Shown: piece after piece, positions 5,762-15,193 of the stretch
How positions within the stretch are numbered: the first letter of the stretch is position 1
Layout of the letters: the number at the start of each line of letters is the position of its first letter
Assembly: GCA_903858935.1 (NCBI GenBank)
Contig: CAIOKO010000138.1
Location: 1-64,000, forward strand
Length of the DNA stretch: 64,000 nucleotides
From: an uncultured Schlesneria sp.
GTDB lineage: Bacteria; Planctomycetota; Planctomycetia; Planctomycetales; Planctomycetaceae
Direction: 5' to 3'
Notes under the pieces: model-generated
The model's input: the letters and a program-made list of their open reading frames with translations, nothing else
What the model was told of the DNA's origin: nothing
Databases searched by the model: none
Program-made: the position numbers and the translations under genes

Positions 5762-6406
5762 ATGAGTCGACACGATGATTTGCAACGAGTTTTGGATGGC
5801 GGCATCGTGGCCATCATTCGTGCCACCTCAGGCGAGCAGTTGGTTAATGTCGCCCGCGCACTTTATGAGGGTGGAATCGATATTATCGAGGTGACCTTCA
5901 CCACCCCGGGTGTTGTCGATGTCATTTCGGCAGTACGAAAAGAATTTGGCAGTAAGATTCTGCTCGGTGCCGGAACGGTCCTCGATCCGGAAACGGCACG
6001 AACGGCAATTCTGGCAGGAGCCGAATTTCTCGTCTCACCATGCGTCAATCTGGACATCATCAAGCTTGGACTAAGATACGACAAACTGGTGATGCCGGGG
6101 GCTTACACGCCGACCGAAATTGTCACCGCATGGGAAGCTGGCGCCGACGTCATTAAGCTTTTCCCCGCTGACATCGGTGGTGCTGCGTATCTCAAAGCAC
6201 TGAAAGGTCCGCTCCCACAAATCAGGTTAATGCCCACCGGCGGGGTCAACCGCGAGACATTAAAGGATTTTGTCAAAGCAGGTGCTTGTGCCGTTGGCCT
6301 CGGTGGGCAACTCGTCGAAAAAGAAGCGCTCGAACGAGGAAACTTTGAGCGGATTCGAGATCTTGCGGCGGAATACGTCCAACTTATGCGACAAGCCAGG
6401 TTGTAA
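5762..6406 (+). CDS. eda: 2-dehydro-3-deoxyphosphogluconate (KDPG/KHG) aldolase
   Basis: A 214-residue class I aldolase that splits KDPG to pyruvate and glyceraldehyde 3-phosphate, the last step of the Entner-Doudoroff route, and often also acts on 4-hydroxy-2-oxoglutarate. The Schiff-base lysine is K132 in VIKLFPA. The general-base glutamate is E43 in IEVTF, and the phosphate-binding GGV loop is in PTGGVN. Length is typical of the family. AAAGG lies nine bases before the ATG. No 6-phosphogluconate dehydratase (edd) gene is in the window, so the enzyme may serve sugar-acid breakdown in general rather than a complete local pathway. Confidence 0.93.
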   Translation: MSRHDDLQRVLDGGIVAIIRATSGEQLVNVARALYEGGIDIIEVTFTTPGVVDVISAVRKEFGSKILLGAGTVLDPETARTAILAGAEFLVSPCVNLDIIKLGLRYDKLVMPGAYTPTEIVTAWEAGADVIKLFPADIGGAAYLKALKGPLPQIRLMPTGGVNRETLKDFVKAGACAVGLGGQLVEKEALERGNFERIRDLAAEYVQLMRQARL

Positions 6407-7263
6407 TTGGCCCATTTGGTCGGGATATTCCGGATGTGAGAACCTGAGGGGGATACCGAGCCAACCCACGTAGTAACGCAACCCCGACCGGAAGGGGGGG
6501 GCAGGGTCTTTTTATCAGGATCGTCGCCAATTGGCGTGCGTGATTTCATCGCCAGATTGTGATTGTTGGGTTCGATCAGGAAACTCGTGGAGGTCCGTTC
6601 GGCTCATTTGCGTGACAGCAGAGGTGAGCTTGCTAAAGCCCAGGTAACGCATCTTTTTCAATTCAATGTTGAAAAGACTTCACTCAATGTAAGCAGCTTG
6701 TAGGCTGACAGAGTCACGAAGGCTCTCCGCCGACCCCGCGTGGTCTGAAGCAGACACCGGAAGCTATCGAACCGGTTTCTGGCGAGATAAGTTGTCGAAT
6801 CGTTTCGGCAGAAACCGCTCAAGGCTCAAATTGGTAGCCGGTATCTCGCGACGATATGCTCTAAAATTTCTGGCTGCCAATCCTCAAATCCAGCTTTGGT
6901 ATCGACTTTGCTGCGTACCCAGCCGTCCAACTTCTCGAAATTCTGCGTTTTTTGATTGTGCTGGGCCGTTGAATCTCGTCATCATGTCTGAGGGAAATTG
7001 TCAACTAAATACGTTAGATTAGGCGGTTTGGTCCGTACTGTAACGAATTTTGGACAGATAACAGTTTGCGGACTTTGCGGACTGTATATGGCGATAGCTG
7101 ATGTTTGTGCGAGTTTTTGTGATTTCAAAGATTTGATTAAAGCCTCTCTTTGACCTTCGGCTTATCATAATTGACGGAATCCCGGCAAATTGCCACACGT
7201 GGTTGCCGGACGAAAATTCAACGGAAATGGCTTGGAACCAGTTTTATTGAGGGGGGCTCAATT
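6407..7263. other. 857-base intergenic stretch, no confident gene
   Basis: No large gene is supported. On the minus strand 6515-6652 encodes a clean 45-residue frame (starting MRYLGFSKLTSAV, ending HANWRRS) with only a weak ribosome binding site; it may be a small gene, at low confidence. A C-rich/G-rich patch at 6482-6501 followed by CTTTTT near 6508 could act as a weak terminator for the aldolase gene. The final 100 bases should hold the promoter of the YTV gene; TTGACC near 7149 and AT-rich sequence near 7163 are possible but unconvincing elements. Confidence 0.3.
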
Positions 7264-8616
7264 ATGAAGAATGCGATGGTCAGTGCTTTTGCAGCGCTGG
7301 TGATCGCGGTTGCTGCATCACCAGGTACGGCTTTGGCCGGGTGCTATTGTGGTGCCGCAACTTACCGGTGTTGTCCAACGGCTGCGTGTCAGCAGTCGTG
7401 CTGTTACACGACTCACCGTGTTGAACGGCAGACATGTCAACGAACTGTCTACGAAACGATTCAGGAGCCGCAGACATACACGGTTAACCGAACCGTCTAC
7501 GAAACGGCGTACGAGGATGTGACGGAAACACATCAGCGGATGGTCAATGAAGTGGCCTATCGCGAACAGCAGTATCAGGTCGCAAGGCAGGTCTACGAAA
7601 CGGCTGATCGTGAAGAACGTTACACCGTCATGAAACCTGTCAGCGAAACGTTGTATCGCGATCAGACCTATACGACGCAAAAGCAAGTCTGGGAAGAATC
7701 GTGTCGCGAAGTAAGGCGATGCGTCCAACGCCCCGTCAGAGAGACTCTCGAACGGGAATGTCGACAGACCGTCATGCGTCAGCAGACAGAAGTGATTAAT
7801 CAGGAACGCTGTTACACGGTCATGCGACCGGTCACGACGTATCGCACGGAAAAACAGGATTGTGGCCAGTACACACAGCAACAGGTCTATCATCAAGGCC
7901 CCTGCTGTCCAAAAATGGTTTGCGGCCCTTGCGGTCCTCAGATCTGCATGGTTCAGATGCCTGGTTTCTACACCTGTAAACGAGTCTGGTGCCCGAACAT
8001 CGTCGAACGCCAGATCCCTTGCACAACGTACCAGCCACAAGTGGTGCGTCAGTCCTGTCCGGTGACTGTCTGTAAGATGGTTCCCGAAACCATTGTGACC
8101 AAGGTACCGTACACTGTCTGCCGCATGGTCACAGAACAGGTTGTCGAAAAGGTTCCTTACAAGACCTGTCGAATCGTCTGCGAACAGCACGTCCAGAAAG
8201 TGCCGTATCAGGTCTGCCGCATGGTCGCTGAAGAATGTGTTCGCAAGGTCCCACATCAGGTCTGCCGCACCGTTATGGAAACAAAGACCTGCCGAGTTCC
8301 TTACACCGTCTGCCGACAGGAGCCCTTCACGGTCACCAAACGAGTCGCTCGATGCGTACCCCGTGAAGTTCAGTCAACCTGTACACGCATGGTATCAAAG
8401 TGTGTGCCACGAGTGGAAAACTACGAAGTCTGCCGTCTCGTTCCAGAAACCGTCTGCCCATCAAGCTGTAATTCCTGCGGCTCGGGCGGCTGTGCATCCG
8501 GAAATTGCGGTGTCCCTAAGGACACTCAAGTCGATATGAAACCGATTCCCGAGGAATCCGTCCCTGCGTCAGGCAGCCCGATTTCCCACTTCACACGTCG
8601 CCGATTGAGTATCTGA
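7264..8616 (+). CDS. exported Cys-rich repeat protein of the planctomycete YTV type
   Basis: A 450-residue secreted protein. The start at 7264 is chosen over an in-frame upstream codon because a GAGGGGGG tract lies just before it and the product opens with a signal peptide (MKNAMVSAFAALVIAVAA, cut near ALAG). The mature protein is made of two kinds of degenerate repeat. The first (about 45-190) is a Tyr/Glu-rich unit, for example TVNRTVYETAYEDVTE. The second (about 255-420) is a Cys-containing unit of about 16 residues, for example VPYTVCRMVTEQVVEK and VPYQVCRMVAEECVRK. Cysteines are regularly spaced, which suggests disulfide cross-linking outside the cell. YTV-type repeats were described from planctomycete genomes and linked to their proteinaceous wall; a structural role here is inference. 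A strong terminator follows, so the gene is transcribed alone. Confidence 0.88.
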   Translation: MKNAMVSAFAALVIAVAASPGTALAGCYCGAATYRCCPTAACQQSCCYTTHRVERQTCQRTVYETIQEPQTYTVNRTVYETAYEDVTETHQRMVNEVAYREQQYQVARQVYETADREERYTVMKPVSETLYRDQTYTTQKQVWEESCREVRRCVQRPVRETLERECRQTVMRQQTEVINQERCYTVMRPVTTYRTEKQDCGQYTQQQVYHQGPCCPKMVCGPCGPQICMVQMPGFYTCKRVWCPNIVERQIPCTTYQPQVVRQSCPVTVCKMVPETIVTKVPYTVCRMVTEQVVEKVPYKTCRIVCEQHVQKVPYQVCRMVAEECVRKVPHQVCRTVMETKTCRVPYTVCRQEPFTVTKRVARCVPREVQSTCTRMVSKCVPRVENYEVCRLVPETVCPSSCNSCGSGGCASGNCGVPKDTQVDMKPIPEESVPASGSPISHFTRRRLSI

Positions 8617-8757: not shown

Positions 8758-9663
8758 TCAACGATCGCTGATCTTGATGTTCTCGTAATGCGAATCACAG
8801 GCTGGCACAGCCAAACCGCCAGGATTAAGCAGGGCTGCCCTTAACGTACGGACGAACTCGCCAGCCTGATATCCATTGACCAGACGGTGATCGAGTCGCA
8901 CAAACAGTGGTGCCACGCTGCGAATCACAATCGAATCCCCCTCGGCGACCGGGCGCATCTCAGCAGGTCCTAGCGTGACGCTTACTCCATACGAGTTCGT
9001 CGGAAGACTGCTTGGCTTAAATGAGATCATGGGCGGTGCGTTGGCAAATCCAAGGTGATTGACAAACGCCCCACTACCGTTGATCTCTTCCAGGGTTGTT
9101 GTCGGAAGCCTGAAGCGATTCGTCAGGAAGAACCCGACCTTTGCCATGCGATAAACCCATTGCGAACGGAACCATTTGTGCCAGCGGTATCTCCTGTTTT
9201 CAACAGAACTTCCGTTCTTCTGGAGGTTCGCTTCCGTCGCCGCACGGACAGCGACGTCGCGAGCTTTTCCCATGAGATAACGGGAAATCTCGACCAGCGA
9301 CATCCGCTCCGCATTCCGCAAATAGATGACGTTGACTTCACCCGTACGAGTTTCCAGCATCGGCATCGTGATGTGAATTCCATCATAGGGATAGATGCGC
9401 TGACCAACGACTCGACGATTGACCTTCGGGTGTCGGTACATCGCTTCGACGACCGCGCGAATCAGCACATGAGCGGTCGAAATAAATGCTCCGGTCTCTC
9501 GTTTCTGGTCAGCGACAAATTGTGACAACGCTTCGGTCTGGATCGATGTCCCCCAGATCATGGTCGGATCGCAATGAGCCGATGCGGTTGCCAGGTAAGT
9601 TGTATTGACCCAACCCAACTCTTCCAGCGGGACGGAACGGGATTCTGTCGGCCAGTAATACAC
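8758..9663 (-). CDS. free-standing acyltransferase of the 2-oxoacid dehydrogenase E2/CAT fold
   Basis: A 301-residue protein matching only the catalytic domain of dihydrolipoamide acyltransferases (E2) and chloramphenicol acetyltransferase. There is no lipoyl domain and no E1/E3-binding domain, and no pyruvate or 2-oxoglutarate dehydrogenase gene is nearby. The catalytic motif near the C-terminus is DHRLVNG with His259; the aspartate normally found at position 263 is asparagine. The start is GTG, supported by GAGGGGGAG a few bases upstream. It is the last gene of an operon with an acyl carrier protein (14 bases upstream) and an acyl-AMP ligase. The context suggests it takes an acyl group from the carrier protein to an unknown acceptor, as related condensation-fold enzymes do. 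A chloramphenicol-type detoxifying role cannot be excluded, but the carrier protein argues against it. Confidence 0.8.
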   Translation of the reverse strand: MYYWPTESRSVPLEELGWVNTTYLATASAHCDPTMIWGTSIQTEALSQFVADQKRETGAFISTAHVLIRAVVEAMYRHPKVNRRVVGQRIYPYDGIHITMPMLETRTGEVNVIYLRNAERMSLVEISRYLMGKARDVAVRAATEANLQKNGSSVENRRYRWHKWFRSQWVYRMAKVGFFLTNRFRLPTTTLEEINGSGAFVNHLGFANAPPMISFKPSSLPTNSYGVSVTLGPAEMRPVAEGDSIVIRSVAPLFVRLDHRLVNGYQAGEFVRTLRAALLNPGGLAVPACDSHYENIKISDR

Positions 9664-9677
9664 CTTGCAACTCCCCC

Positions 9678-9932
9678 TCAGTGATGCTGGCCTGCGATTC
9701 GATTCTCAATCAATCGCGAAATCGCGGCAGGTGTTTCGAAGACATCTGGCGTGATGTCTTCGAATTCAAGGCGTATTCCTAACTCGGTTTCGATGAACAC
9801 GAGCAAGTCCATCATCATCAACGAGTCAATAATGCCTGATTCCTGTAATTCTGTGTCACCGTCGATCGACGATTGTCCGGTCGCGGAAACCAGAAATCCA
9901 ACAATTTTCTGCTGTATCTCGGCGGCGTTCAT
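9678..9932 (-). CDS. acyl carrier protein
   Basis: An 84-residue carrier protein. The phosphopantetheine site is Ser37 in GIIDSLMMMDLL, followed by the acidic helix FIETELGIRLEFEDI that partners usually recognise. The start at 9932 is preferred over a longer in-frame form because the ATG overlaps the ligase stop as ATGA and AAAGAGGT lies just upstream; the longer form would overlap the ligase far more. It is not the fatty-acid-synthesis ACP by context (no fab genes around). It sits between the ligase that can load it and the acyltransferase that can unload it. A phosphopantetheinyl transferase is needed but not present in the window. Confidence 0.9.
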   Translation of the reverse strand: MNAAEIQQKIVGFLVSATGQSSIDGDTELQESGIIDSLMMMDLLVFIETELGIRLEFEDITPDVFETPAAISRLIENRIAGQHH

Positions 9933-11593
9933 GGACTGACCTCTTTCGTGATGGATGGGACTGAATCCGGCCATGTTCCTGGCACTGCTGATTCCTGTTC
10001 GGCGATTTGTGTTAACAGCGGGCGATCAATTTTTAATGAAGAATTCAAAGGTAATGAGTCCAACAGGCGGATGAAGCTCGGAACCATATGTCGTGGCAGT
10101 CCGTCACGGCATCGAGCGATGATTTCCGCATGTGTCAGGACATTCGTACTTTTTAAAAACAGGGCCAGGCGAGTGCCGACCTGCGGTGACTCGTAAGCGA
10201 CCGCAACAGCCTCGCTGGCGGATAACTGCCGGACGGCAAACTCCTCCAGGTCCGCCGGATGAACTCGAAATCCCGCAATTTTAACGATCGCGTTTTGGCG
10301 GCCTCGGTGATAGATCCATCCCTCATCATCAGTTTCCGCCAGGTCTCCTGTCAGCAGCCATCCATCCCGCATTTTCTCGGTGGTCGAGGCTTTATCCTGC
10401 CAATATCCCAGCATGATGTTGTCGCCGCGCGCTCGTAGCTCACCGATCGTTCCCGTCGCGACCGGTCTCCCATTTTCGTCGACGACTTCCAGGTTGACTC
10501 CAGGGACGGCTTGACCGATGCAGCCAGCCGGCAAGCACTGAAAACGTTCCGGAGGAACGTAGGCAAGCCGTGCCGTCGCTTCGGTCTGTCCGTACATGAG
10601 ATATAAGCGGGCAGGCGAAATCCGTTTAGCCACCTCGATTGCCAGGGTTTGCTGTAGCGCCCCTCCAGCGACGGCAAGATACCGCAACGATGGCAATTCG
10701 GTACGGCCCAGAGACGTCCGCTCAAGTAATACTCGTACAAGGTCTGGGACCGCGGAAAGGCTTGTCGCTTGATGGCATGTGATTGCGTTAATCAGTGTTT
10801 CAGGAAAGACCGTCGAACCGTCCAGAATCAACGTCGCACCAGCCAGAAGATGCGACTGCAGCACCGAGTTTCCAAATGCGTGGTAGAACGGCAGAACACA
10901 TAACGGCCGATCCTGCGAATTGATTTCAAGATAGTGTTGAATGGAACGGGCATTCGAAAGCAGGTTTCGATGGCTGAGCATGACTCCCTTGGGACCTCCC
11001 GTAGAGCCCGATGTGAAGAAAATTGCAGCCAGATCATTTCCGCCGCCGGAGGGTACTGGAAATGGGCGCGATGAACTGCTGAACGTTTCGTTGAACGTGA
11101 GTGACAAAGTGGGAATCTGCTCGCCGAAAGGAACAGAGCGTTTTGTCGAGGACGAAATCACTACGGTCGTTGCCTCGGTCGACTCGATGATTCGTTCTAG
11201 AGCCTTCGTTTCCATTCGAGGTGGGACAGGAACAACCACTGCGTCTGCCAGCAGTATCCCGAAGAAGGCGGCGATATATTCGAAACAGTTGGGAAGCATG
11301 ACCACAACACGAGCACCTGGTTTGAAGCCTGGACTGGCTTGCAGGGCGATCGAGGTCTCTATCGCGGCGATTGCCAAGTCGCTGTAAGACCAGTCCGATT
11401 CCTTCGTGATGATTGACGACAGATCAAGGTTGCGGCCTGCGGCGATCAAAAACTGCGATCCAAGGTGCGTGTCATGTCGCTCATGGAATTCGAACAACCC
11501 AGTCGGAAGTCTGGACGATCGGGTTTTGCCCGCCTTCAGGATCAGCAGATTGTTGGGAAGCCGACATTCGGTCGACATGTTCGGTAATTCCAT
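9929..11593 (-). CDS. acyl-AMP ligase / acyl-CoA synthetase-like adenylating enzyme
   Basis: A 554-residue ANL-superfamily enzyme that activates a carboxylic acid as acyl-AMP and passes it to a thiol. The P-loop TSGSTGGPKG is at 194-203, the A5 motif YGQTEAT at 334-340, TGD at 415-417, and the catalytic C-terminal lysine is K521 in SSLKIDR. The stop codon overlaps the carrier-protein start (ATGA), so the two are translationally coupled. That coupling makes the carrier protein the likely thiol acceptor, as in fatty acyl-AMP ligase/ACP pairs, including those seen in exosortase-associated clusters. The substrate cannot be read by eye: a medium- or long-chain fatty acid is the simplest guess, an aryl or amino acid is possible. 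The second ATG (residue 6) is an alternative start. The hydrolase gene ends 15 bases upstream. Confidence 0.9.
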   Translation of the reverse strand: MELPNMSTECRLPNNLLILKAGKTRSSRLPTGLFEFHERHDTHLGSQFLIAAGRNLDLSSIITKESDWSYSDLAIAAIETSIALQASPGFKPGARVVVMLPNCFEYIAAFFGILLADAVVVPVPPRMETKALERIIESTEATTVVISSSTKRSVPFGEQIPTLSLTFNETFSSSSRPFPVPSGGGNDLAAIFFTSGSTGGPKGVMLSHRNLLSNARSIQHYLEINSQDRPLCVLPFYHAFGNSVLQSHLLAGATLILDGSTVFPETLINAITCHQATSLSAVPDLVRVLLERTSLGRTELPSLRYLAVAGGALQQTLAIEVAKRISPARLYLMYGQTEATARLAYVPPERFQCLPAGCIGQAVPGVNLEVVDENGRPVATGTIGELRARGDNIMLGYWQDKASTTEKMRDGWLLTGDLAETDDEGWIYHRGRQNAIVKIAGFRVHPADLEEFAVRQLSASEAVAVAYESPQVGTRLALFLKSTNVLTHAEIIARCRDGLPRHMVPSFIRLLDSLPLNSSLKIDRPLLTQIAEQESAVPGTWPDSVPSITKEVSP

Positions 11594-11608
11594 CGATTTG
11601 ACAGAGAA

Positions 11609-12337
11609 CTACCTGAGCACTGGCAGAAGGGGGACGCTGCCGATGACTGCGGTATCGGGAGATGAAACATACGCAGGCTGACGCGATACAACAGCTCCGG
11701 TTGCCATCTCACGCATTGCACTCGTACTGCCAATCGCAAAGTGATTTCGCTTCAACTGACTGGCGAACTCGGGAAACTCTTTGACGTCGATATTATGGAT
11801 TATGGTACAGGGACTTTCGGCTTCGACTGGAATTCCGCGGAACATGGGAATCATGTCCAGCTTGCGTGACGCATAGTAGTTGATGCAATAGTCGACGTTG
11901 CCGGGGACCGGAGTCCCAAGCGTCGATTCGATCAGGACCATCGTCTTCACTCCGATGCCATAGGTTTCAAGTCGTTGGGCCAGTATGCAAGCCGCGTCAG
12001 CCCCGCTGCTGTATCCAACGATGATGACGCCGCCTGCCATTTTACATCGCTGATGGGCACAAGCAATTTTTCTAGCCGTTGCCCCCGCTTCCCAGCCGTA
12101 GATGATTGAGGGTGCATACCCCAGACAGCGAAATTCGTCGGCCAGGGCATTCGCCCCTGGCCAGTATCCAAGTCCACCCCGAATTAATATCACGTCCTGT
12201 CGCCCACAGCAGTCAGAATGACCGATCGTCCCTTGTGCCTGAGCACTCGAAGAAACACAAATCGCAAAAATGGCCGAAAACAGAAGTCGGTTAAACCAGC
12301 TTTCTGCTCGTAAAATTCGGCAAATCAATTCAGCCAT
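11609..12337 (-). CDS. exported alpha/beta hydrolase
   Basis: A 242-residue protein with a signal peptide (hydrophobic RLLFSAIFAICVSSSAQAQ, about 17-35). The start at 12337 is chosen because it gives a normal-length signal peptide; the longer open frame adds 46 unlikely residues. The nucleophile elbow is GYSSG in VGYSSGADAA, and the probable catalytic histidine lies in KRNHFAIGS near the C-terminus. Six mature-part cysteines suggest disulfides. Overall it resembles the single-hydrolase-domain proteins related to VirJ and small lipases. It is the first gene of the operon with the acyl-AMP ligase, carrier protein and acyltransferase. A role in releasing, trimming or recycling the acylated product outside the cytoplasm is plausible but only inferred. 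Confidence 0.75.
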   Translation of the reverse strand: MAELICRILRAESWFNRLLFSAIFAICVSSSAQAQGTIGHSDCCGRQDVILIRGGLGYWPGANALADEFRCLGYAPSIIYGWEAGATARKIACAHQRCKMAGGVIIVGYSSGADAACILAQRLETYGIGVKTMVLIESTLGTPVPGNVDYCINYYASRKLDMIPMFRGIPVEAESPCTIIHNIDVKEFPEFASQLKRNHFAIGSTSAMREMATGAVVSRQPAYVSSPDTAVIGSVPLLPVLR

Positions 12338-12972
12338 TTGTCTCAAACCTTTTTCAGCACTTTTTTCACTTTCGGTCGAATTTGCCGACCACCACCGGCG
12401 AAATCTGCTTATTCTCATCAATCTTGATGTCAGGGATTCACATGAGCACCAGTCGATGACCTGAAAACACCGCAAAAACCGAATATCCGGTATTAATAAT
12501 CATCGGCACTTTAAGCCCCTTGACGCGAGACTCATTGTCGCTGCAGACACCGCATCCCAAAAATTCGATTCAACTTCACTCTTATTCAGTCGGATCTGCG
12601 TATTCGGAATTGCAGGACAACCTGGAGTGTTTGCCGCAATGCGTACGACGCTTCGAGTTGTTTGATCAATTTCTGGCGGAGTAATTGATCCGGATTACCA
12701 GTTTCCGCAGAAATGAAGCGAGTTAATGAAGCGTACGCCCCTCCGCTGCAATACATTACGATTGTTGACGAACTTGAAATCGTCTCTTATTTAAGTCCGA
12801 AAAGTTTGGGTAGTACCGCACGCCCGATTTTGGACTCGCAGAACTTTTGGAACGGCGCATCAAAAAATAGAATCAGCAAGCCGATGGAAGGTACGGTTTC
12901 AGCGAACCACAGTGCTCTAACAAACGGCTGCCACAGTGTTTGCAACTTTCGGCAATTGACGAGGGATCAGGA
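12338..12972. other. 635-base divergent intergenic region
   Basis: It separates the minus-strand acyl-ligase operon from the plus-strand dioxygenase gene and must hold both promoters. An open frame from 12713 has an unlikely composition and overlaps the dioxygenase gene in another frame, so I reject it. A small inverted repeat, ACCGAATATCCGGT, lies near 12478-12491. I see no other structure. Confidence 0.3.
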
Positions 12973-13938
12973 ATGGAGATCAATGTTTCGACGCTCGAAG
13001 GATTCAACGAGCTTCCGCTGGTGGTACAACCGGTCGAGGCGGGGCGTTGTTCGGCGGAAGACCTTGTTGCTTTTATTTCGGGTCGCCACGACTGGTTGAA
13101 GTCGACCCTGCATCGGCACGGAGGAGTTCTCTTTCGAGGGTTCGCGATTCGCGAAATCGACGAGTTTCAACGGGTTTCCCAGGCTGCGGTGCCGGAACTC
13201 AAACCATACGTCGAAGGCCAATCCCCCAGAACAAAGGTTGCTGATAACGTTTACACCTCGACGGAATTTCCTCCGCAGTATCGGATTACGTTGCATAACG
13301 AACTGTCGTATGCAAAATCACCGCCGACAAGAATTGTATTTCACTGCCATGTCGAGCCTGTCGATCGAGGCGAAACGCCGATCGTCGATTGTCGTAAGGT
13401 TTACCAAAAGATGGATCGAGAACTGCGAGATCGATTCGAACGACTTGGTGTTAAATACGTCAAGACGATGCATGGTCAGGAACGAGGACTCGGGAAATCC
13501 TGGATGGACCATTTCGAGACCAATGACCGCTCTGTTGTTGAAGAATACCTGCACGAAAACGACATCAGATTCGAGTGGTCCGCTAACGCGGCATTGCGAA
13601 CCTGGTCAATCCGGCCAGCGGTTCAACGTCATCCTGTGACCGGCGAAATGCATTGGTTCAACCAGGCAAATTTATGGCACGTCACGAATCTCGACGAACG
13701 GCACCGTCGTCCACTGCTTGGCCGATGTGGCATCGAGAATCTGCCGACTCACGCGTATTACGGGGACGGCAGCGCAATACTTGACGAAGATCTGGATCGA
13801 GTCCGTGAAGTCCTTTGGAGTAATTCCGTGATGTTCCCATGGTATCAGGGCGACGTGCTTGTCCTCGACAATCACCTCGTCGCTCACGGTCGAAACGCTT
13901 ACTCCGGTCCTCGCAAGATTTTGGTAGCGATGGGTTGA
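12973..13938 (+). CDS. TauD/TfdA-family Fe(II)/2-oxoglutarate dioxygenase
   Basis: A 321-residue member of the TauD/TfdA family, which uses 2-oxoglutarate and oxygen to hydroxylate or otherwise oxidise small molecules. The iron ligands are His108 and Glu110 (HNE, in place of the commoner HxD) and the distal His305 in HLVAHGR; Arg314 should bind 2-oxoglutarate. The sequence is closest in feel to SyrP/clavaminate-synthase-like members that modify amino acids in secondary metabolism, but the substrate cannot be read. The ATG at 12973 is preferred over an upstream TTG because GAGGGATCAGGA precedes it directly. It faces away from the acyl-ligase operon across 635 bases, so a shared pathway is possible but not shown. 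Confidence 0.87.
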   Translation: MEINVSTLEGFNELPLVVQPVEAGRCSAEDLVAFISGRHDWLKSTLHRHGGVLFRGFAIREIDEFQRVSQAAVPELKPYVEGQSPRTKVADNVYTSTEFPPQYRITLHNELSYAKSPPTRIVFHCHVEPVDRGETPIVDCRKVYQKMDRELRDRFERLGVKYVKTMHGQERGLGKSWMDHFETNDRSVVEEYLHENDIRFEWSANAALRTWSIRPAVQRHPVTGEMHWFNQANLWHVTNLDERHRRPLLGRCGIENLPTHAYYGDGSAILDEDLDRVREVLWSNSVMFPWYQGDVLVLDNHLVAHGRNAYSGPRKILVAMG

Positions 13939-14037
13939 ACCGGTTTTGACGGAGTCGGCAATTGCTTCTTGATAAGATGATACGTAACGTTCACCAAGAA
14001 ATCCCCTCAACATAGAACTTTCGTACGCGGAGTTACC

Positions 14038-14769
14038 ATGCAACGCAGTTTACTTTCAGCAGTGGTTGCCGGATTGATGTTATTCGTTTGCGGAAAAAGC
14101 TTGATCGCACTGGAAGCTGACGAGCTTATGGAACGAGCCAAGGCCATTCGAAAAAAGGCTGCGGCGACGACGGAGCAAGCCAAAGAAGCATCAGCCAGGA
14201 TGCTTGAGGCAGCTGAACGCCTGGAGCACCAGGCAAAAGCGGGTGGCGAATCAGGTGAGCTTTCGGGACGGGAAAAAAAGGGACGCCAGCTTAAGGAACG
14301 CCTTCAGGATTTAATCGCAAAGTCGCGGCAACTGCGTGAAGCGAACGCACCTGATCAACAATTGGCTGACGTACAGGCAGAGATTTCAGAAATTGAGCAG
14401 AACCTTTGTACGATTCATGCAAAACATTCAGATCAAGCAAACCATCGTGAATATCAGGGTATTCCTGGCGAGTTTCGCCAACAGGCCGAGAAACTTGAAG
14501 CCGCTTCCCGCCGAATCCATCACATTCGCGTTGCTGCTGAAAATCTTAAACAGGCCGAGATTCACGACGTGGCTCACCAATTGATGGCAACCGCCGAAAA
14601 TATGGAGCAAGACGTCAGGCGATCCAAACAGCAGTTGGCAAAAGAAATGCACAATGCGGATGAACGACAGCGTGAACGCGGCCCTGATTCCACGCAGGAA
14701 CTTCAAGAAGAGAACGAACGACTGCGACAAATGATCAAAGAGTTGACCCAGAAAATCGAAAATCGCTGA
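14038..14769 (+). CDS. exported coiled-coil protein
   Basis: A 243-residue protein with a signal peptide (LLSAVVAGLMLFVCGKSLIA, about 5-24). The mature part is almost entirely predicted coiled coil, rich in Ala, Glu, Lys and Gln, broken near residues 72-80 and 135-150. The C-terminus (LQEENERLRQMIKELTQKI) is a clear leucine-heptad helix. No enzymatic motif is seen. Proteins of this kind are common in planctomycetes and are probably periplasmic or wall-associated scaffolds; that is inference. It converges with the next minus-strand gene, the stops being only 10 bases apart. Confidence 0.75.
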   Translation: MQRSLLSAVVAGLMLFVCGKSLIALEADELMERAKAIRKKAAATTEQAKEASARMLEAAERLEHQAKAGGESGELSGREKKGRQLKERLQDLIAKSRQLREANAPDQQLADVQAEISEIEQNLCTIHAKHSDQANHREYQGIPGEFRQQAEKLEAASRRIHHIRVAAENLKQAEIHDVAHQLMATAENMEQDVRRSKQQLAKEMHNADERQRERGPDSTQELQEENERLRQMIKELTQKIENR

Positions 14770-14779
14770 ATGGTGGTCC

Positions 14780-15193
14780 CTATTTTGGTTTCAAGGCAAG
14801 TAAGAATGATGAGAGCAGCGTTAGTGGGAAAATAAAGAACCAGTAGGGAACGGCGAATACGCTAAACGGAGATCCTTGTCCATCGCTTCTGCCGTAAAAA
14901 AGCCCCCATCTTTCCCAGTGAAGTTCTGATCGCGTTCGATCAAAGTAAGAGGAAACGTTAGTTAGCTGAATTGGCAACACGGCCCATTCAATGCGACCGT
15001 CCGAATAAATATCATGAGAGATCCAGACGATCCTCTCAGACGCCGAGCAAACAAAGACCTTTCCGTTCGGCTTTGGTAGGCCGATCATGTCAATTAGTAG
15101 CTGGCTGCGCATCCATCCGGCCACGAATCCCAGTGCCATCACCAGTGTTACGACGCCAAACTTTCGTCGCCACCCTTTAAAGAATTCTCGCAT
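14780..15193 (-). CDS. two-pass membrane protein, unknown function
   Basis: A 137-residue protein with transmembrane segments near the N-terminus (VVTLVMALGFVAGWM, about 13-28) and the C-terminus (WFFIFPLTLLSSFLLAL, about 117-133). About 85 residues between them should lie on one side of the membrane. The start at 15193 is preferred because it places the first membrane helix in a normal position after the basic MREFFKGWRRKFG; the longer frame adds 37 Cys/Pro-rich residues. I do not recognise the family. Small proteins of this layout (two helices around a soluble loop with an LHWERWGLFYG-like phrase) look typical of the lineage. Confidence 0.65.
   Translation of the reverse strand: MREFFKGWRRKFGVVTLVMALGFVAGWMRSQLLIDMIGLPKPNGKVFVCSASERIVWISHDIYSDGRIEWAVLPIQLTNVSSYFDRTRSELHWERWGLFYGRSDGQGSPFSVFAVPYWFFIFPLTLLSSFLLALKPK

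Follow-up and report, generated by a model that had tools for sequence, protein, structure and literature searches.

A family-restricted ligase, carrier protein and E2-fold acyltransferase cassette in planctomycetes as a candidate carrier-bound acyl-tailoring and transfer pathway

Background

Which of the genes clustered around an acid-activating ligase in a planctomycete genome belong together, and what might they do? The question is raised by a 64,000-nucleotide stretch of DNA from an uncultured Schlesneria sp. (contig CAIOKO010000138.1; hereafter the window), in which genes for an ANL-superfamily ligase, a free-standing acyl/peptidyl carrier protein (ACP), a stand-alone acyltransferase with the fold of the E2 enzymes of 2-oxoacid dehydrogenases (hereafter E2) and a predicted exported alpha/beta hydrolase lie side by side. 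A sequence-only reading of the locus had proposed that these four genes form a small pathway in which an acid is activated, held on the ACP and transferred to an acceptor. We report here that the cassette is restricted to one family, patchy and reshuffled, that its minimal unit consists of the ligase, ACP and E2 genes, and that a TauD/TfdA-type dioxygenase (hereafter TauD) and an S-adenosylmethionine (SAM)-dependent methyltransferase are its usual tailoring partners. We interpret it as a carrier-bound acyl-tailoring and transfer pathway, in which an acid would be activated, loaded onto the ACP, oxidized there and transferred by the E2-fold enzyme, an interpretation to which we give as much belief as doubt.

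Results

Conservation of the ligase, ACP and E2 genes

The locus set comprises 30 loci from 28 E2-bearing genomes, which were searched in six frames with profiles built from the cassette's own members. Co-occurrence was counted in 170 genomes of the order, with one-sided Fisher p values that are uncorrected for descent and descriptive only. With the window E2 as query, orthologs were found in 28 of the 170 genomes at E ≤ 1e-15 (10 of 58 genera), all belonging to the window's own family. The ligase, ACP and E2 genes keep the same order and strand at 26 of the 30 loci, in nine genera, a count that takes in one ligase cut by a contig end (L062), one truncated E2 (L055) and one locus with opposite-strand open reading frames (ORFs) between ACP and E2 (L059). 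Outside this order stand a locus that reads E2, ligase, ACP (L054), two that are cut by contig ends (L050 and L061) and a second E2 copy without ligase or ACP (L060). Ligase matches at E ≤ 1e-110 occur in 28 of the 170 genomes, and E2 and ligase are found together in 26 of the 28 E2 genomes. That ligase, ACP and E2 constitute a conserved unit, more than would arise by chance, is supported. Since the triad is also kept at loci with no adjoining TauD or methyltransferase gene, it represents the minimal unit. Gene order among relatives, on which the sequence-only reading had staked its proposal, is thus retained for these three genes; the part of the four-gene set that did not stand is the exported hydrolase as a regular member (5/30 loci).

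In a search of 392 genomes across the phylum, the single-protein E2 query matched at least eight, and the E2 profile at least 12 at E ≤ 1e-15, at least five of them outside the family; these counts are lower bounds (at most five candidates per genome were scored). The called ORFs beside five distant E2-like proteins from outside the family include no ligase, ACP, TauD or methyltransferase, a negative of limited reach, as the E2 ORF itself is uncalled in L103 and L104 and L105 spans only 4 kb.

Partial forms of the cassette were also seen. At L055:7793-8644 (genome G029), an apparent deletion has joined E2 and the following MprF-C-like gene (described below) in a single ORF of 283 aa; either the intact E2 has been lost or the assembly is in error, and ligase, ACP, TauD and methyltransferase remain. 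At L082:8824-10422 (G026) and L083:8567-10165 (G027), the ligase is kept with 84% identity to the nearest cassette member, and no ACP, E2, TauD or methyltransferase profile match lies within the 19 kb fetched, which could be read as partial loss of the cassette or as a ligase put to another use. In one genus (g10), most loci have a constant neighbourhood (L037:886-4683 and 11470-15187) that includes a thiamine-diphosphate enzyme, a 4HBT thioesterase, an FAD-NAD(P) oxidoreductase, a DNA methylase and a ceramidase-like protein.

Organization of the window locus

The places and spacing of the four minus-strand genes were confirmed as first read, with gaps of 15, -4 and 14 bases between hydrolase and ligase, ligase and ACP, and ACP and E2, respectively (Table 1); the ACP start overlaps the ligase stop (ATGA). 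Selection on the window genes was estimated against three close genomes (L004-L006) as the ratio of nonsynonymous to synonymous substitution rates (dN/dS), which was 0.07-0.10 for the hydrolase, 0.15-0.20 for the ligase, 0.05-0.09 for the ACP, 0.09-0.11 for E2 and 0.04-0.06 for TauD. The G+C content of the cassette genes and the dioxygenase gene is 0.48-0.54, similar to that of the window (0.527). Convergent to the cassette, at 7171-8616 on the plus strand, lies a gene for a Cys-rich protein with five YTV stretches (PF07639), which has 97-98% identity in L005 and L006.

Table 1. Features of the cassette locus in the window
Feature	Position	Strand	Remarks
Stand-alone E2/CAT-fold acyltransferase	8758-9663	-	301 aa, GTG start; core; PF00198, without lipoyl domain
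Free-standing acyl/peptidyl carrier protein (ACP)	9678-9932	-	84 aa; core; PF00550, DSL serine
ANL-superfamily acid:carrier ligase (AMP-forming)	9929-11593	-	554 aa; core; PF00501 and PF13193
Predicted exported alpha/beta hydrolase, thioesterase-like	11609-12337	-	242 aa; lineage-specific accessory, non-core
Divergent intergenic region, 635 bp, hydrolase/dioxygenase	12338-12972		presumed promoter region, from position only
TauD/TfdA-type Fe(II)/2-oxoglutarate dioxygenase	12973-13938	+	divergently transcribed tailoring partner; PF02668

Ligase and carrier protein

The sequence-only reading had described an ANL ligase with all core motifs, an ACP with a DSL serine and an acyltransferase lacking a lipoyl domain, and the family searches and alignments bear out all three. 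The ligase matched PF00501 (E 1.4e-73) and PF13193 (E 4.6e-5) and no other Pfam family; its identity is 72-78% in the three close genomes and 46-58% in the remaining ones. In an alignment of 26 of the 27 called ORFs (the L062 fragment was dropped, and L056 is cut at its N-terminus), T194, G196, S197, G199, P201 and K202 of the TSGSTGGPKG-type phosphate-loop motif are invariant, as are Y334-G335-Q336-T337-E338, D417 and K521. We take the core motifs, including the C-terminal catalytic Lys, to have their usual functional roles. The position that aligns (to LgrA) with the amino-acid-binding Asp of nonribosomal peptide synthetase (NRPS) adenylation domains, presumably that of PheA Asp235, is G241 in all 26 rows, and because of this glycine an ordinary alpha-amino acid is an unlikely substrate. 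The stretch PFxHAxGNSVxQxH is nearly unchanged across rows, which suggests a single substrate class. The best NCBIfam match, ligase_PEP_1 of the exosortase A system (TIGR03098), was rejected as an assignment at 294.4 bits against a cut-off of 592.35.

Acyl-CoA ligases make up most of the ligase's best NCBIfam matches, and an Asp is missing from the amino-acid position in its stretch PFYHAFGN, as would be expected if it were a coenzyme A (CoA) ligase of fatty- or aromatic-acid metabolism; the E2-fold protein would then be an acyltransferase dependent on acyl-CoA, and the ACP would serve elsewhere. We consider this improbable, given that an ACP gene lies between ligase and E2 at 26 of the 30 loci and that the ligase stop and ACP start overlap both in the window and in close relatives. 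The closest ligase relative on a named replicon, the one match at E ≤ 1e-60 in the plasmid collection (Paludibaculum, 33.7% identity), also overlaps an ACP gene, whose product is 33% identical to the window ACP over 55 residues. Acyltransferases, a flippase, a nucleotide-sugar dehydrogenase and an EpsI-type exosortase-associated gene are found at that locus, so that the context of this ligase/ACP pair points to envelope acylation, which is weighed below.

The ACP matched PF00550 at 28.4 bits (cut-off 20.8), and D50, S51 and L52 (numbering of the 98-residue ORF) are invariant in 24 rows, an alignment that leaves aside the ACPs of L039, L043, L054 and L059. Two matches to phosphopantetheinyl transferase (PF01648) are present in the window genome.

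E2-fold acyltransferase

The E2-fold protein matched PF00198 at 60.5 bits (cut-off 23) and nothing else at E ≤ 0.01 over its whole length; it therefore has no recognizable lipoyl domain. A DHR motif with a catalytic-type histidine, H259, is invariant in 29 rows (the 30 called ORFs minus truncated L055; the uncalled L061 is missing, and the out-of-family L063 is included). No match to the window protein was found in the plasmid collection at E ≤ 1e-5. The PF00198 domain might suggest that a 2-oxoacid dehydrogenase complex survives here as a remnant or in variant form, the more so as a gene for a thiamine-diphosphate enzyme lies a few kb upstream at nine loci of genus g10 (PF02776/PF00205/PF02775 in L037). 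That enzyme is of the decarboxylase type and no E1, however; no E1 or E3 family was matched among the cassette neighbours scanned with Pfam, the lipoyl domain is missing, and the best other match to the window protein in its own genome has only 29% identity over 116 residues. We give this explanation next to no credence.

Two sets of more distant proteins were noted. L105:2675-3592 (G254) encodes a distant E2-like protein on the same strand as genes for a hexapeptide-repeat transferase and a glycosyltransferase, suggesting that E2-like enzymes occur in polysaccharide loci. Five haloarchaeal plasmid loci (L117-L121) encode small E2-annotated proteins of 259-299 aa by coordinates; their gene table, which is incomplete, shows no E1, E3, ligase or ACP gene within 5 kb, and three of the five are followed, on the opposite strand, by a gene for a CAAX/CPBP-type protease. 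As small E2-annotated proteins without such partners occur in haloarchaea, a stand-alone E2-like gene is not unusual in itself.

Dioxygenase and methyltransferase

The dioxygenase matched PF02668 (E 2.6e-42), and its H-x-E...H residues, H119, E121 and H316 (numbered from the TTG at 12940), are invariant in 19 rows comprising 17 locus copies, L079 and the more distant L081. The TauD gene adjoins the triad at 18 of the 30 loci (only a fragment at the contig end in L043); it is mostly divergent and upstream, but in L049, L051 and L052 it lies downstream and shares the strand of the triad. TauD and E2 share 18 genomes (E2 in 28 and TauD in 20 of the 170; Fisher p 2.5e-15). The solved structures related to it are At3g21360 (1y0z, E 4.8e-41) and 9yut (E 4.2e-33).

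Relatives of TauD are encoded by 81 records of the plasmid collection (E ≤ 1e-20; best identity 46%), of which ten loci among the best 25 records were opened, one being without annotation. At all nine annotated loci (40-46% identity) the relative lies in or beside NRPS, adenylation or carrier genes: within an NRPS protein in Leptolyngbya; fused to a condensation domain in Trichormus, with free carrier and methyltransferase genes adjoining; next to NRPS genes in Janthinobacterium, Vibrio, Methylomagnum, Azospirillum and Methylosinus; near an adenylation-domain protein in Streptomyces NBC_01361; and adjoining a free carrier and an AMP-binding protein in Streptomyces NBC_00963. These relatives point to a carrier-bound substrate, and to tailoring, for the cassette dioxygenase as well.

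A gene for a SAM methyltransferase adjoins 15 of the 30 loci (a partial match in L060). It is unlinked in the window genome (G000:C236:333-1181, 48% identity to the L037 protein), and in G102 it is found on a different contig, beside an MprF-C-like gene. Methyltransferase and E2 share 20 genomes (methyltransferase in 21 and E2 in 28 of the 170; Fisher p 1.2e-18). The positions of TauD and methyltransferase are reshuffled between loci, and linkage survives rearrangement. At L048 (G103), two methyltransferase copies stand one on each side of the cassette (550-1456 and 6323-7229). PF12147 (Methyltransf_20) was considered as the family: the L037 protein scores 52 bits against a cut-off of 21, but the window-genome copy is marginal at 21.6 bits, and a whole-genome PF12147 scan of the window genome gave nothing at E ≤ 0.001, so only "SAM methyltransferase" is claimed here. 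The sequence-only reading had missed both the dioxygenase and the methyltransferase and had put forward plain acyl transfer; the two enzymes make it more likely that the acyl group is first oxidized on its carrier and then transferred.

Exported hydrolase, MprF-C-like protein and envelope acylation

The hydrolase had no Pfam or NCBIfam match at E ≤ 0.01. Its nucleophile elbow GYSSGAD (S110), D184 and H199 are invariant in nine rows; its relative in L054 scores 26.0 bits against PF00975 (Thioesterase; cut-off 26.4), and a second relative touches the same model at E 0.0023. Export is predicted from a signal peptide ending AQA|QG, judged by eye. The gene lies directly beside the triad at four loci (window, L064, L065 and L066) and near it at L054, where a methyltransferase gene intervenes. 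The 23 hydrolase matches fall in 22 genomes; 18 are on contigs without E2, seven of these in genomes with E2 elsewhere and 11 in genomes without it, and no cassette gene lay alongside at the four of these 18 loci that were opened. We treat the hydrolase as an accessory of one clade, an optional extracytoplasmic add-on outside the core; counting against this, hydrolase and E2 share 11 genomes (Fisher p 7.7e-5).

A soluble protein resembling the C-terminal domain of MprF (lipid aminoacyl transferase family; PF09924, E 5.8e-42) is encoded at 11 of the 30 loci, directly after E2 in nine (two partial). Its link to the cassette looks looser, because the family occurs in 48 of the 170 genomes and 27 of those 48 lack this E2. 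Four such proteins are encoded in four places of a single genome from the window's genus (G135:C20).

These neighbours bear on another explanation, namely acylation of a cell-envelope polysaccharide or lipid in the manner of dltABCD or almEFG, in which the ACP-bound acid would pass straight onto lipid or sugar and the exported hydrolase would finish or trim the product outside. The logic of ligase, free carrier and acyltransferase is the same as in the Dlt and Alm systems, as set out in parts of PMC12930378 and PMC3783018. DltC is the best NCBIfam match of the window ACP (E 2.6e-8), yet with 33.8 bits against a cut-off of 68; the MprF-C-like family is present at cassette loci, yet only 11 of its 48 genomes have it linked to the cassette. 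The Paludibaculum ligase and ACP relatives, among acyltransferases, a flippase and an EpsI-type gene, and the setting of the E2-like protein of L105 speak in its favour; no MBOAT, LPLAT or DltD match was found among the Pfam-scanned neighbours (part of all neighbours), no glycosyltransferase among the conserved neighbours scanned and, by eye, no membrane segment in the E2-fold protein. Envelope acylation of this direct kind strikes us as rather unlikely on balance.

Discussion

The proposed pathway would begin with adenylation of a carboxylic acid, probably no ordinary alpha-amino acid, by the ligase, which would load it onto the phosphopantetheine arm of the ACP; loading is proposed because of the protein families and the overlap of the two genes. 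Next, in most members, the ACP-bound acid would be hydroxylated or otherwise oxidized by the TauD-type dioxygenase, as the NRPS-associated relatives of this enzyme suggest, and the co-occurring methyltransferase might methylate the acid or the final product, which is the weakest step of the scheme. Lastly, the E2-fold enzyme, through its invariant His, would take the acyl group from the ACP thioester to an acceptor with an amine, hydroxyl or thiol group. The ACP and this acceptor would take the places that lipoamide and CoA have with true E2 enzymes. A lipid or cell-envelope saccharide is the more likely class of acceptor. A more specific version can be offered tentatively, and we put it below an even chance: an E2-fold acyltransferase recruited in planctomycetes as the release and transfer enzyme of a minimal assembly line of discrete proteins, made up of ligase, free carrier, carrier-acting dioxygenase and methyltransferase, whose product would be a lipid or envelope polymer modified with a hydroxylated and possibly also methoxylated acyl group.

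Several observations weigh against a carrier-bound tailoring and transfer pathway. Among the 28 E2 genomes, ten have no TauD match at E ≤ 1e-40 and eight no methyltransferase at E ≤ 1e-25, some of the assemblies being incomplete. The His motif of E2 reads H-x-x-x-N-G in 22 of the 29 rows, the window included, instead of H-x-x-x-D-G; it differs otherwise in seven, and H-x-x-x-D-G is seen only in L050 and L063. Asn202 seems to replace a residue that we take to be the oxyanion-type Ser of E2 enzymes, and these altered motifs could mean altered activity. We infer interaction of E2 with the ACP from gene order only, and the ligase may load CoA rather than the ACP. Structure prediction for E2 (window and L004-L006 rows) gave a mean predicted local distance difference test score (pLDDT) of 36.8 and a predicted template modelling score (pTM) of 0.36, so the fold is assigned by sequence families. 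Between the methyltransferase that adjoins TauD in Trichormus and that of the cassette no similarity is detectable, nor is there any between the carrier of Streptomyces NBC_00963 and the cassette ACP; as the ligase of the latter is also only 25% identical to the cassette ligase, these loci are parallels and represent different cassettes.

If the proposed pathway is correct, an E2-type acyltransferase would stand in for a condensation domain or a membrane acyltransferase and would receive its acyl group from a carrier protein rather than from lipoamide. The cassette would then offer a short, clonable route of four or five predicted soluble proteins to a planctomycete product. The presence, partial loss and rearrangement of the cassette within a single family make comparative metabolomics a direct test.

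Comparison with known systems

The nearest worked precedent for steps on a carrier is NRPS tailoring of the cystobactamid or SyrP type. According to a part of PMC7966384, the SyrP-like CysJ hydroxylates asparagine that is bound to CysH and not free, CysQ then O-methylates it, and CysB carries the unit on. The cassette likewise encodes an adenylating enzyme and a carrier, a SyrP-like dioxygenase, a methyltransferase and a protein that would move the unit; the TauD domain and the iron-binding triad are present in its dioxygenase, whose relatives are in carrier-protein pathways. It differs in its separate ligase and carrier proteins, in the Gly that its ligase carries in place of the Asp of amino-acid adenylation domains and in the E2 fold of its transfer enzyme; NRPS genes were not found next to the cassette loci.

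For the series of ligase, free carrier and acyltransferase, Dlt and Alm are the nearest precedents. DltABCD (teichoic acid D-alanylation) has an ANL ligase, a free carrier and a transfer step, and its DltC is the best NCBIfam match of the ACP; in contrast, no DltB or DltD was found among the cassette neighbours scanned, the ACP scores below the DltC cut-off, and the ligase is of a non-amino-acid type. AlmEFG (lipid A glycylation) follows the same three-gene logic, as described in part in PMC12930378, but the cassette acyltransferase is E2-fold (PF00198), whereas AlmG has an LPLAT domain (an excerpt of PMC3783018), and the cassette has a dioxygenase partner.

In the OlsH/OlsI ornithine-lipid pathway, too, planctomycete genes that activate an acid, transfer an acyl group and methylate adjoin one another, but OlsH is GH3-like and OlsI an alpha/beta hydrolase, as given in part of PMC12493201. 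A relation to OlsHI, the best NCBIfam match of the L037 ACP, was rejected on the ACP scores (22.6 bits for the window and 36.9 for L037 against a cut-off of 130) and on ligase type, since only PF00501 and PF13193, and nothing GH3-like, were matched. A stieleriacine-type (N-acyl tyrosine) pathway was considered and set aside; as described in PMC7293339, the route starts from tyrosine and lauryl-ACP, and the main text of that paper nowhere uses the word ligase.

With the E2 enzymes of 2-oxoacid dehydrogenases the acyltransferase shares PF00198 and the active-site His, but it lacks a lipoyl domain, no E1 or E3 partners were found among the neighbours scanned, its H-x-x-x-D-G motif is incomplete, and it is linked to a ligase and an ACP. 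This linkage also sets it apart from the haloarchaeal proteins, which are likewise small, stand-alone and E2-annotated. By membership tests on these sequences, the cassette is none of the cystobactamid, Dlt, Alm or OlsH/OlsI systems. Among the papers listed by searches of the Creative Commons-licensed full text of PubMed Central, which is part of the literature, we found no description of the same gene combination or of its use of an E2-fold enzyme. The core parts all belong to known families, and it is their combination with an E2-fold enzyme that would be new.

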